Shown: one piece after another, positions 3,489 through 53,359 of the stretch | Numbering within the stretch: the stretch's first letter is position 1 | Layout: every line of letters begins with the position of its first letter | Assembly: GCF_002564105.1 (NCBI RefSeq) | Contig: NZ_PDBX01000001.1 | Span: forward strand, 1,550,001-1,614,000 | Direction: 5' to 3' | Length of the DNA stretch: 64,000 bases | Source: Collimonas sp. PA-H2 | GTDB lineage: Bacteria; Pseudomonadota; Gammaproteobacteria; Burkholderiales; Burkholderiaceae_D | Program-made: the position numbers and the translations under genes | Notes under the pieces: generated by a model | Told to the model about the DNA's origin: nothing | Seen by the model: only the letters and a program-made list of their open reading frames with translations | Databases searched by the model: none

Positions 3489-5258
3489 ATGCGTACTACT
3501 TATTGGTTGAAACCATTGGCGGCATCGGTACTGCTGCTGGGCTTGCTGGGCAGCGTACAGGCAGCATCCGCACCCGCGGTCGAAGCGAAGAACGGCATGG
3601 TGGTGACTTCCCAGCACCTGGCTTCGCAGGTCGGGGCCGACATCCTCAAGATGGGCGGCAACGCCGTCGATGCGGCGGTAGCGGTCGGTTATGCGCAGGC
3701 GGTGGTGAATCCCTGCTGCGGCAATATCGGCGGCGGCGGCTTCATGACCATCCACCTGGCCGATGGCCGCGATACCTTCATCAATTTCCGCGAAACCGCA
3801 CCGGCCGCGGCCAGCGCCAATATGTACCTGGACGCTAACGGCAAGGCGATCACCAACGCCAGCCTGTTTGGCTACCTGGCGGCAGGTGTTCCCGGCACCG
3901 TGCTGGGACTCGACAGCGCGCAACGCAAATACGGCAAGCTGACTCGTGCACAAGTCATGCAGCCGGCGATCAAGCTGGCGCGTGACGGTTACATCCTGAA
4001 CCGCGGCGACACCGACATCCTCGACACCACCATCGCCCAGTTCAAGAAGGACCCGGAAGCGGCCCGCCTGTTCCTGCGCCGCGACGGCACGCCATTGCAG
4101 CCGGGCGACCGCCTGGTGCAGAAGGACCTGGCCAAGACCCTGGAAGCCATCTCGCGCAACGGTCCCGACGCCTTCTACAAAGGCGCGATCCCGGAAGCAG
4201 TGGAACGCGCCTCCAAGGCGGGCGGCGGCATCATTACCGCGGCCGACTTTGCCAGTTACAAGATCAGCGAAAGCGCACCGCTGTCGTGCAACTATCGCGG
4301 CTATGTGTTCGTCTCCGCCCCGCCGCCTAGCTCCGGCGGCGCCACCATGTGCCAGATCCTCAATATTCTCGAGGGCTACGACATGAAGGGACTCGGCTTC
4401 CACTCGGCAGCCTCGGTGCACTACATGACCGAAGCCATGCGCCATTCCTATATGGACCGCAACACTTTCCTGGGCGACCCGGCCTTCGTCAAGAATCCGC
4501 TGGACCGCTTGCTGAGCAAGGAATACGCCGCCGCTATCCGCGCAAAGATCAGCGCCGACAAGGCTACGCCATCGGTAGAAGTGCAGCCAGGCATGGCGCC
4601 GCACGAGAAGCCTGAAACCACCCACTACTCGATCGTCGACAAGGACGGCAATGCGGTGTCGACCACCTACACCATCAACGGCCGCTTCGGCGCCGTGGTG
4701 ATTGCGCCGGGCACCGGCTTCTTCCTCAACGATGAAATGGATGACTTCACCGTCAAGGCCGGCGTGCAGAACCTGTTCGGCCTGGTGCAAGGCGCGACCA
4801 ACTCGATCGCTCCCGGCAAGCGTCCGCTGTCGTCGATGGCGCCGACCCTGGTGACCAAGGATGGCAAGACTTACATGGTGCTGGGTTCGCCGGGCGGTTC
4901 GCGCATCATCACCATCACACTGGAAACAGCGCTGAATGTAATCGACTACGGCATGGCGCCGCAGGAAGCGGTCGATGCGCCGCGCATCCATCACCAATGG
5001 CTGCCGGACGAGGTGTACTACGAAACCCGCGGCCTGTCGCCGGATACCCTGAAGATCCTCGACGGCATGGGCTACAAGATGAAAGAGCAAACCCCTTGGG
5101 GCGCCGCTGAGCTGATCATGATCGGCTTGCCGGGTGCTGCCGGCGTTGCCGGCGCCAGCTCGGGCAATGACGCCGGCGTCTCGGGCATTGTCCGTCCGGG
5201 CCTTTATTACGGCGCCAACGATACACGCCGCCCTGCAGGCGCTGCCATCGGTTACTAA
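3489..5258 (+). CDS. ggt: Gamma-glutamyltransferase (secreted)
   Basis: A 589-residue Ntn-hydrolase proenzyme. Residues 1-25 are a Sec signal peptide (positive start, Leu-rich core, VQA-A cleavage-like site), so it is periplasmic or exported. Autocleavage would occur before Thr377 in PETTHYSIVD, giving a large subunit and a small subunit starting at the catalytic threonine. RPLSSMAPT and GSPGGSRI near residues 445-480 form the gamma-glutamyl binding and oxyanion region. It cleaves glutathione and other gamma-glutamyl compounds and transfers the glutamyl group to water or amino acids. The start follows a strong AGGGAGAAGG site. It is a single gene, with a terminator carried by the adjacent mobile element. 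Confidence 0.97.
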   Translation: MRTTYWLKPLAASVLLLGLLGSVQAASAPAVEAKNGMVVTSQHLASQVGADILKMGGNAVDAAVAVGYAQAVVNPCCGNIGGGGFMTIHLADGRDTFINFRETAPAAASANMYLDANGKAITNASLFGYLAAGVPGTVLGLDSAQRKYGKLTRAQVMQPAIKLARDGYILNRGDTDILDTTIAQFKKDPEAARLFLRRDGTPLQPGDRLVQKDLAKTLEAISRNGPDAFYKGAIPEAVERASKAGGGIITAADFASYKISESAPLSCNYRGYVFVSAPPPSSGGATMCQILNILEGYDMKGLGFHSAASVHYMTEAMRHSYMDRNTFLGDPAFVKNPLDRLLSKEYAAAIRAKISADKATPSVEVQPGMAPHEKPETTHYSIVDKDGNAVSTTYTINGRFGAVVIAPGTGFFLNDEMDDFTVKAGVQNLFGLVQGATNSIAPGKRPLSSMAPTLVTKDGKTYMVLGSPGGSRIITITLETALNVIDYGMAPQEAVDAPRIHHQWLPDEVYYETRGLSPDTLKILDGMGYKMKEQTPWGAAELIMIGLPGAAGVAGASSGNDAGVSGIVRPGLYYGANDTRRPAGAAIGY

Positions 5259-5312
5259 ATAAGTAAATAAGCCGTTTCCGCTTTGTTACGCAAAAGATGG
5301 GCATCCGTACCT

Positions 5313-5345
5313 AATGCCGTTCAGTTAAGACTGAACGGCATTTTT
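5313..5345 (+). terminator. Rho-independent terminator inside the mobile element, after ggt
   Basis: A perfect 13-bp stem, AATGCCGTTCAGT (5313-5325) with ACTGAACGGCATT (5330-5342), loop TAAG, followed by TTTTTATTT on the plus strand. It lies 54 bases after the ggt stop and would end ggt transcription in place of the split host terminator. The same hairpin faces the carbonic anhydrase gene in the other copy. Confidence 0.85.
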
Positions 5346-5358
5346 ATTTGCGGAACTC

Positions 5359-5457
5359 GTAGGGTGGGCACTCCGTGCCCACGCGGACGGGCCGGGGCAC
5401 GAATGTCAGGGACACGAATATCCATGATACTGCGTGGGCACGGAGTGCCTACCCTAC
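5359..5457. repeat. GC-rich core repeat of the mobile element, copy 1
   Basis: A 99-bp unit that begins GTAGGGTGGGCACTCC and ends in its inverted form, so the two ends can pair; each end is itself a small hairpin (GTGGGCA-N5-TGCCCAC). Further copies lie at 52891-53004 and 53159-53269. Confidence 0.8.
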
Positions 5458-5637
5458 GCATGTCGTTCTGCCCTAACTGAACAGCATTAGGCTTCGGTGC
5501 CTATCTTTTTTTTCGCTCGTAAAAACCAAAAATGCCGTTTCCATGAGTAAAACGCATGGTTCTAATAGTATTTATCGTTTTATCCAGGGCCGAATCAAAT
5601 TTACACTGCGCCTATCCTCCTCCGATAAAGAGTGCGC

Positions 5638-52818: not shown

Positions 52819-52890
52819 GACCCGCATCTGCGAAAAAAAAGAAGACGGCCTGGGCCGTAATGCCGTTCAGTTAGGGCAGAACGACATGGC

Positions 52891-53004
52891 GTAGGGTGGG
52901 CACTCCGTGCCCACGCAGTGCCGTGGAGATTTACGTCCCTGGGCATTCGCACCCGGGCTACGCGCCCCCGTCCTATCCGCGTGGGCACGGAGTGCCCACC
53001 CTAC
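52891..53004. repeat. GC-rich core repeat of the mobile element, copy 2
   Basis: Second copy of the core, GTAGGGTGGGCACTCC at the left and its inverse ending in CCCACCCTAC at the right; the middle differs from copies 1 and 3. Confidence 0.75.
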
Positions 53005-53158
53005 CGATGCTTTGTCGCGAACTCAGTAAGCCCGCAGCGTTTATCGCGCCGAATGCGAACAGCAGCGCCATCAGTTCGACCACACAAGCAGGGGCACAGC
53101 AACCGGCCGGATACAAAATCGCTACGCAATTAATCATTCCTTACTGAAAATCGCTGCC

Positions 53159-53269
53159 GTAGGGTGGGCACTCCGTGCCCACGCAGTATCATGGATATTC
53201 GTGTCCCTGACATTCGTGCCCCGGCTAGCGCCCCGGCCCATCCGCGTGGGCACGGAGTGCCGTCCCTAC
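53159..53269. repeat. GC-rich core repeat of the mobile element, copy 3
   Basis: Third copy of the core. In reverse complement it is almost identical to copy 1 at 5359-5457, with an insertion of about 12 bases (CTAGCGCCCCGG region) and a few substitutions. Confidence 0.8.
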
Positions 53270-53280
53270 GAGTTCCTCAA

Positions 53281-53315
53281 ATAAAAATGCCGTTCAGTCT
53301 TAACTGAACGGCATT
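53281..53315 (-). terminator. Rho-independent terminator inside the element, after carbonic anhydrase
   Basis: A 13-bp perfect stem (53286-53298 with 53303-53315, loop of 4) followed on the minus strand by TTTTTATTT. It is the same hairpin as at 5313-5345, here facing the carbonic anhydrase gene 45 bases away. Confidence 0.85.
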
Positions 53316-53359
53316 ACGGCCTGGGCCGTCTTTTTTATTTCCGGCACAGCCGGAACGCC

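Follow-up and report, generated by a model that had tools for sequence, protein, structure and literature searches.

The window, by which we mean the whole stretch of 64,000 nucleotides of the Collimonas sp. PA-H2 genome analyzed here, contains two copies of a MITE, each inserted within an intrinsic terminator. Copy 1 is 178 bp long (5312..5489, forward strand), is bounded by terminal inverted repeats, TAATGCCGTTCAGTTA and TAATGCTGTTCAGTTA, in inverted order, and lies behind ggt, the gamma-glutamyltranspeptidase gene (3489..5258, forward strand; PF01019, E 2e-173), whose terminator it splits. The left half of that terminator (5292..5311, forward strand) consists of an A-run and stem, AAAAGATG at 5292-5299, followed by the left target duplication, GGCATCCGTACC at 5300-5311 (forward strand). 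On the other side of the element (5490..5513, forward strand) are found the right target duplication, GGCTTCGGTGCC at 5490-5501, and the right half of the stem with the T-run at 5502-5513, the sequence directly after the duplication being TATCTTTTTTTT. The apex of this terminator, built in the order A-run, stem-loop, T-run, corresponds to the two duplications of copy 1. These 12-bp duplications match at only 9 of 12 places, a mismatch that the first-pass annotation of this DNA did not mention, and in folding calculations the rejoined site forms a U-tailed hairpin of -10.4 or -14.9 kcal/mol, depending on the duplication retained. The central claim of that annotation, namely that the element sits at the dyad centre of the terminator after ggt, is borne out, as the duplication is the hairpin centre and the rejoined site folds. 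In addition, copy 1 contains a putative terminator of its own (5312..5349, forward strand; -19.7 kcal/mol), in which the terminal repeat serves as the 5' arm and the internal stretch ACTGAACGGCATT as the 3' arm, followed by TTTTATTT.

Copy 2 is 459 bp long (52858..53316, reverse strand), lies in the opposite orientation and has a longer internal region. It is flanked by a gene related to AIR synthase on one side and on the other by a carbonic anhydrase gene (PF00484; 53360..54028, reverse strand) that converges on the split terminator. The left half of this terminator (52834..52857, forward strand) includes the duplication CGGCCTGGGCCG at 52846-52857; the right duplication, again CGGCCTGGGCCG, at 53317-53328, is followed by the T-run (53317..53340, forward strand). 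The two duplications are identical at 12 of 12 positions, and the rejoined site folds into a U-tailed hairpin of -16.0 kcal/mol, in agreement with the earlier observation that the second copy also occupies a terminator centre. The predicted element-borne terminator of copy 2 (53279..53316, reverse strand) points towards the carbonic anhydrase gene.

A search of the PA-H2 genome with the element and its ends gathered 37 copies with paired ends. They range from 176 to 700 bp, contain no transposase and agree in their ends and duplication length with the full-length insertion sequences (ISs) described below; the duplications are at least 75% identical in all 37 and exact in 19. In 29 of the 37 the duplication centre and the centre of a stem scoring at least 14 are no more than 2 nt apart, whereas only 6.1% of random flank positions reach the same stem criterion, and 1.1% when an A or T arm is also required. 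A separate terminator scan placed 28 of the 37 copies within 1.5 nt of a terminator centre. In a strict scan for hairpins with a T-run, 22 of the 37 lie at a terminator centre, whereas any one base would do so with a probability no higher than about 0.0006 (binomial 2e-61); this background was drawn from the same loci and so is not a random part of the genome. The first-pass annotation had judged two of two copies in terminator centres unlikely by chance, and had named most other copies lying outside terminator hairpins as the result that would speak against it; with all genome copies scored, most stand on strong hairpins, and the association exceeds chance. The eight copies that lack a good hairpin are L009, L011, L017, L019 (its second copy), L025, L027, L030 and L042.

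According to an ad hoc gene caller, the context is convergent for 20 of the 37 copies, tandem for 16 and divergent for one, and at least one gene end precedes 36 of the 37 sites. This would suit a transcription-coupled process, in which a paused polymerase, the nascent hairpin or local supercoiling at gene ends attracts the transposome. However, such a bulky complex would hardly produce nucleotide-exact symmetric centring, and we regard this explanation as quite improbable.

Several other features of the PA-H2 copies may be recorded here. The size classes (about 177-196, 460 and 700 bp, the last represented by C1:723656-724355) seem to differ by multiples of an inner repeat. This repeat, of the GTGGGCACTCCGTGCCCAC type, also occurs without element ends at L038-L041 (e.g. 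C1:1279781-1280416, where four units are spaced about 179 bases apart). L009 (C1:949878-950282) exhibits a tandem duplication of the left end together with 30 bases of the left flank, giving two equal left ends and one right end. At positions 5081-5125 of L043 (C1:1302080) there is a lone end, comprising the terminal repeat hairpin and T-run without a partner end, some 50 nt downstream of a stop codon; it may be a terminator left over from an element and adopted by the host. In L044 and L047 there are repetitive reading frames of great length (up to 1394 codons, with repeats of the SLSTGLSTTNSNV type), which resemble surface adhesins.

Comparison with sister Collimonas genomes, judged by eye on 8 and 7 of the loci, reveals both empty and doubly hit sites. 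The terminator of copy 1 is empty and intact in G186 and G117, and that of copy 2 in G186 and G130. In G117, a different MITE, with another core and similar ends, occupies the copy 2 terminator at the same place and with a 12-bp duplication. Likewise, by eye, one orthologous terminator holds an IS in G186 (L088) and a MITE in PA-H2 (L021).

No parent transposase was found in the PA-H2 genome: a profile search with PF13006 (Nterm_IS4) returned no match, and the PF01609 matches (a 353-aa transposase in four copies, plus a fragment) were rejected as candidates, having no such ends at up to 3 mismatches. Among the 245 genomes of the family, the exact end sequence is present in 48, belonging to 14 of the 44 genera. 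Nine full-length elements of 1415-1433 bp share the ends of the MITEs; eight carry a gene of 441 codons and one a broken frame. All three parent transposases analyzed match PF13006 and PF01609 above the cut-off, as well as the NCBIfam IS4 model NF033592, and in all three D133, D210, E315 and Y308, R311, E315, K322 are invariant (assigned by reading the sequences against the patterns D(60-110)D(100-150)E and Y(2)R(3)E(6)K). The IS4 subgroup is defined by ends of the form -AATR--------WTW, duplications of 10-13 bp and a size of 1400-1650 bp; the parents have the ends TAATGCCGTTCAGTTA, duplications of 10-13 bp and 1415-1433 bp in length. By their ends, duplication length and lack of a transposase, the elements of the window are IS4-subgroup MITEs, which we infer to have been mobilized in trans by an IS4-subgroup transposase.

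The full-length relatives also share the target. Seven of the nine are flanked by exact or near duplications on strong hairpins, to which L090 (11/12) may be added, and in the whole set of relatives (9 ISs and 45 MITEs) a hairpin is present at 37 of 54 sites, a good hairpin being absent at 17. The duplications of L087 are unlike (3/12), as recombination between copies would leave them. MITEs of different genera (L091-L135) have only their ends in common. Between these stand repeats of unrelated types (GTAGGGTGGGC..., GTCATTCCCGCG... and others), which looks as though common genomic repeats had been picked up by the ends.

Named genomes were scanned as well and yielded 80 loci, from Massilia, Janthinobacterium, Undibacterium, Pseudoduganella, Duganella, Herbaspirillum, Collimonas, Burkholderia, Paraburkholderia and other genera. 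Of 23 two-ended copies, 21 have readable flanks (L148 and L156 lack the right flank and were excluded; four loci repeat the set of relatives), and a hairpin was found in 18 of these 21 copies; among the 18 copies whose duplication is intact, 17 have one. Among the 53 copies for which only the left side was available (after removal of L213), the A arm is present in 50 and the duplication is self-complementary in 40; self-complementary 12-mers make up 5.6% of controls and 22% of shuffled sequences. In other genomes of the class, where the ends were located solely by the inverted repeat and the duplication, a hairpin lies at 30 of 35 pairs, or 30 of 32 once three spurious pairs with ends unlike IS4 (L277, L278, L285) are removed. 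By genome, the hairpin-borne copies number 10/10 in G846, 8/8 in G737, 11/12 in G746, 1/1 in G848 and 0/1 in G834. In all 30 cases the hairpin centre falls within 1 nt of the duplication centre, though the duplications measure 10, 11, 12 or 13 bp. These pairs come from the 39 of 50 loci of the phylum survey that entered the boundary search, four of which yielded no pair; 11 loci were left out as short, cut off or weak (L281, L286, L287, L288, L291, L292, L294, L298, L300, L301 and L305). A PF13006 survey of the class gave one positive genome among 274 and no usable site. Plasmid relatives with an intact duplication, from Acinetobacter and Klebsiella (one annotated as ISAeme15), occupy terminators in three cases of three; no intact duplication was found for a Streptomyces relative (L276), a Klebsiella relative (L272) and a B. 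ambifaria copy (L271).

The transposase of IS4 from E. coli is 35% identical. The 24 copies of this element that we sampled represent 13 distinct left flanks and about 11 loci; the sample is non-random (five copies from many-copy records, eighteen from a spread list without K-12-like rows, and MG1655). About 8 of the 11 loci look like terminators, where both the grouping into loci and the verdict were made by eye, and with a score of at least 14 as the sole criterion the K-12 site would also pass and two bamD-type alignments would fail. The terminator loci are those downstream of crr, cspG/ymcF, bamD, fumB, adhE and a TerD-family gene, together with L265 and a site beside glgP. The adhE terminator has been struck twice by IS4, once in each orientation. 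The remaining loci are the K-12 site (9 copies), yicI and an oxidoreductase gene, and their arms are still A-rich and T-containing.

It could be argued that insertion is near-random and that copies persist only in terminators, which are indeed tolerant places. The eight copies in G737 are base-for-base identical, the pairs compared among the ten in G846 diverge by no more than 0.21%, and every one of these copies lies in a terminator centre. Copies so young have had little time to be purged, and purging selection is unable to centre insertions to within 2 nt, so these data speak strongly against survivorship. The same terminator has, furthermore, been struck independently in sister species, and that of E. 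coli adhE in both orientations. We therefore reject survivorship, which we consider extremely improbable, and take the preference for terminator centres as a property of the transposition system itself. To this extent the suggestion of the first-pass annotation that the transposase recognizes the hairpin or its cruciform was correct. The hairpin or cruciform as such is one candidate for what is recognized: the sharpest positional signal resides in the A and T arms, and sites without a good hairpin usually keep one or both of them.

What, then, is read at the target? Across 69 sites with 12-bp duplications, A prevails at positions -8 to -4 (93% at -6) and T in mirrored fashion, while the core is rich in G+C and has no fixed sequence. 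One answer would be that only sequence is read, i.e. A- and T-tract arms at a fixed spacing (bent DNA) around a G+C-rich core, the hairpins being incidental to the layout of terminators. The arms are the strongest signal, the sites without a good hairpin (8 of 37 own, 17 of 54 related) usually retain at least one A/T arm, and the struck terminators are richer in upstream A than background terminators (p = 7e-5). However, PA-H2 background sites with equal arms, selected by an arm matrix learned on the relatives, form a hairpin in only 17 of 241 cases, and in 16 of 105 when also matched for core composition, compared to 25 of 28 insertion sites. Splitting the equal-arm background by context, a division meant to allow for tolerance, gave hairpins in 4 of 15 convergent intergenic sites (a small sample, based on our own gene caller), 7 of 82 tandem sites and 4 of 76 sites in genes. 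Both the arms and the dyad thus count, and we consider an account in terms of sequence alone rather unlikely.

Another answer, proposed in the first-pass annotation, is that the transposase reads an extruded cruciform or a single-strand hairpin. The diversity of the stem sequences and the centring within 2 nt agree with it, as does the loss of the stem upon swapping right halves between sites, which lowers the mean stem score from 22.1 to 10.1 for the PA-H2 copies (32 sites) and from 17.4 to 9.7 for the relatives (37 sites). In the other genomes of the class, moreover, the parity of the duplication tracks that of the loop (odd with odd in 11 of 13, even with even in 14 of 17; p = 6e-4). On the other hand, this link is absent from the PA-H2, family and named Burkholderiales sets and is thus confined to one set of four, non-hairpin targets do occur, and short stems extrude poorly in DNA. 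Reading of an extruded structure is a doubtful answer too, about on a par with the preceding one. Symmetry matters beside the arms, and the cruciform is one of several ways of reading it: the dyad may be recognized via symmetric contacts on bent duplex DNA or via an extruded hairpin.

The ends of the elements themselves often resemble terminators. In 75 of 77 left ends of Burkholderiales ISs, the outer repeat forms a stem with a complementary stretch farther inside, after which comes a T-run; none of 23 right ends contains such a terminator. It is found at 34 of 74 ends of the PA-H2 copies and at 21 of 108 ends of the related copies. The end hairpin is retained with compensating sequence changes in Massilia timonae (-14.5 kcal/mol), E. 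coli IS4 (-18.7 kcal/mol, at the opposite end of the element), Acinetobacter (-17.0 kcal/mol) and Klebsiella (-18.3 kcal/mol), compared with -19.7 kcal/mol for copy 1. By eye, the T-run is missing from the elements of G737, G846 and most of those of G746. One type of MITE (L101, L133 and L134) has, within its first 65 bases and just inside the end, another and longer inverted repeat between A and T runs, which makes a different terminator-like hairpin borne by the element. Where the hairpin and T-run are both present, we infer that the element end should stop transcription arriving there. The orientation of the element terminator towards the upstream gene shows no bias (9 versus 7 in tandem contexts), and a host benefit through such orientation is unsupported by these counts.

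Taking these data together, we propose, with considerable confidence, that the window contains MITEs of the IS4 subgroup moved in trans, and that a dimeric transposome capturing a symmetric target (A-tract, palindromic core, T-tract) thereby homes to terminators. The MITE, devoid of a transposase, would be moved, now or formerly, by an IS4-family transposase of the IS4 subgroup. The dimeric DDE transposome, with both element ends, would capture a two-fold symmetric target in which an A-tract and a T-tract enclose a palindromic core rich in G+C. The two 3' ends would attack 10-13 bp apart, symmetrically about the dyad. Since this layout is that of a bidirectional intrinsic terminator, the element would find its way to terminators. 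There it would split the hairpin at the apex, which is thereby duplicated, and genes would be spared. The terminal repeat would, in most Burkholderiales members, also act as the 5' arm of an element-borne terminator, halting transcription that enters there. Counting against this proposal are the hairpin-less sites mentioned above, the IS4 copies in two genes and at the K-12 site, the lack of an IS4-type transposase in the genome, the lack of orientation bias and the two groups of ISs without a T-run end hairpin. It is tempting to go further and to regard the whole IS4 subgroup, including the E. coli element, as terminator-homing DDE transposons that read the dyad (perhaps as an extruded hairpin), match their cut spacing to the loop and repay the host with a terminator made of their own repeat, so that genomes would slowly swap native for mobile terminators; this broader scenario is tentative, and we would not yet favor it. 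A symmetric target is also known for IS231A, an IS4-family element of another subgroup, which prefers the bent sequence GGG(N)5CCC; we know of no link between IS231A and terminators.

The IS4 subgroup was defined by De Palmenaer et al. (2008; PMC2266710), who remarked on a spectacular insertion specificity in the target arms. The elements described in the accessible text of that paper and the full-length parents studied here are alike in the ends -AATR--------WTW, duplications of 10-13 bp, a length of 1.4 kb, a single ORF, and the DDE and YREK residues; the target consensus is given there in Figure 3, and the word terminator is absent from the main text. What our work adds to that text is the MITEs, the terminator as the target, and the terminator within the terminal repeat. 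In the open literature, as far as its accessible portion extends, we found no statement that IS4-subgroup elements target terminators, older or closed papers on IS4 being beyond our reach. Judging from the accessible parts of the publications cited here, the nearest precedents are ISRm22, which inserts at the axis of REPs, and the group IIC introns, which go to terminators. Tobes and Pareja (2006; PMC1525189) describe ISRm22 of the IS4 family, all copies of which lie in REPs; in the portion available, this and other REP-targeting ISs likewise insert at the symmetry axis of an extragenic palindrome. However, a REP is one sequence repeated in a genome, whereas the terminators struck here share symmetry and arms and are individual in sequence; a repeated target such as REP can be rejected, as the 37 copies have duplications of differing sequence. 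The group IIC introns, as far as they are covered by the part of Sonbol and Siam (2021; PMC7923331) available, are also mobile elements directed to the stem-loops of intrinsic terminators, but they are retroelements, and RNA pairing brings them in after the stem-loop. Identity with such introns is contradicted by the insertion within the stem-loop, the duplication, the terminal inverted repeats and the DDE transposase encoded by the parents. SPRITE, RUP and BOX of pneumococcus (PMC3049150) are small, terminator-like repeats near gene ends, for which the accessible text does not describe targeting of existing terminators. A 2024 review of MITEs reports intergenic preference and terminator-like repeats, and its accessible sections do not mention insertion into terminators; for MITEAba12, the corresponding text predicts no terminator.

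The remark of 2008 on the target arms, unexplained thus far, would thereby become a simple rule valid in all groups sampled, i.e. Burkholderiales, Enterobacterales and Acinetobacter, and the elements would provide a clean natural case of a DDE transposase seeking dyad-symmetric DNA. For annotators, the rule offers a way of finding split terminators, and E. coli K-12 with its own IS4 allows an immediate test. With respect to the elements themselves, it would account for their multiplication without breakage of genes, and the transposition system would have a safe landing site built into it.
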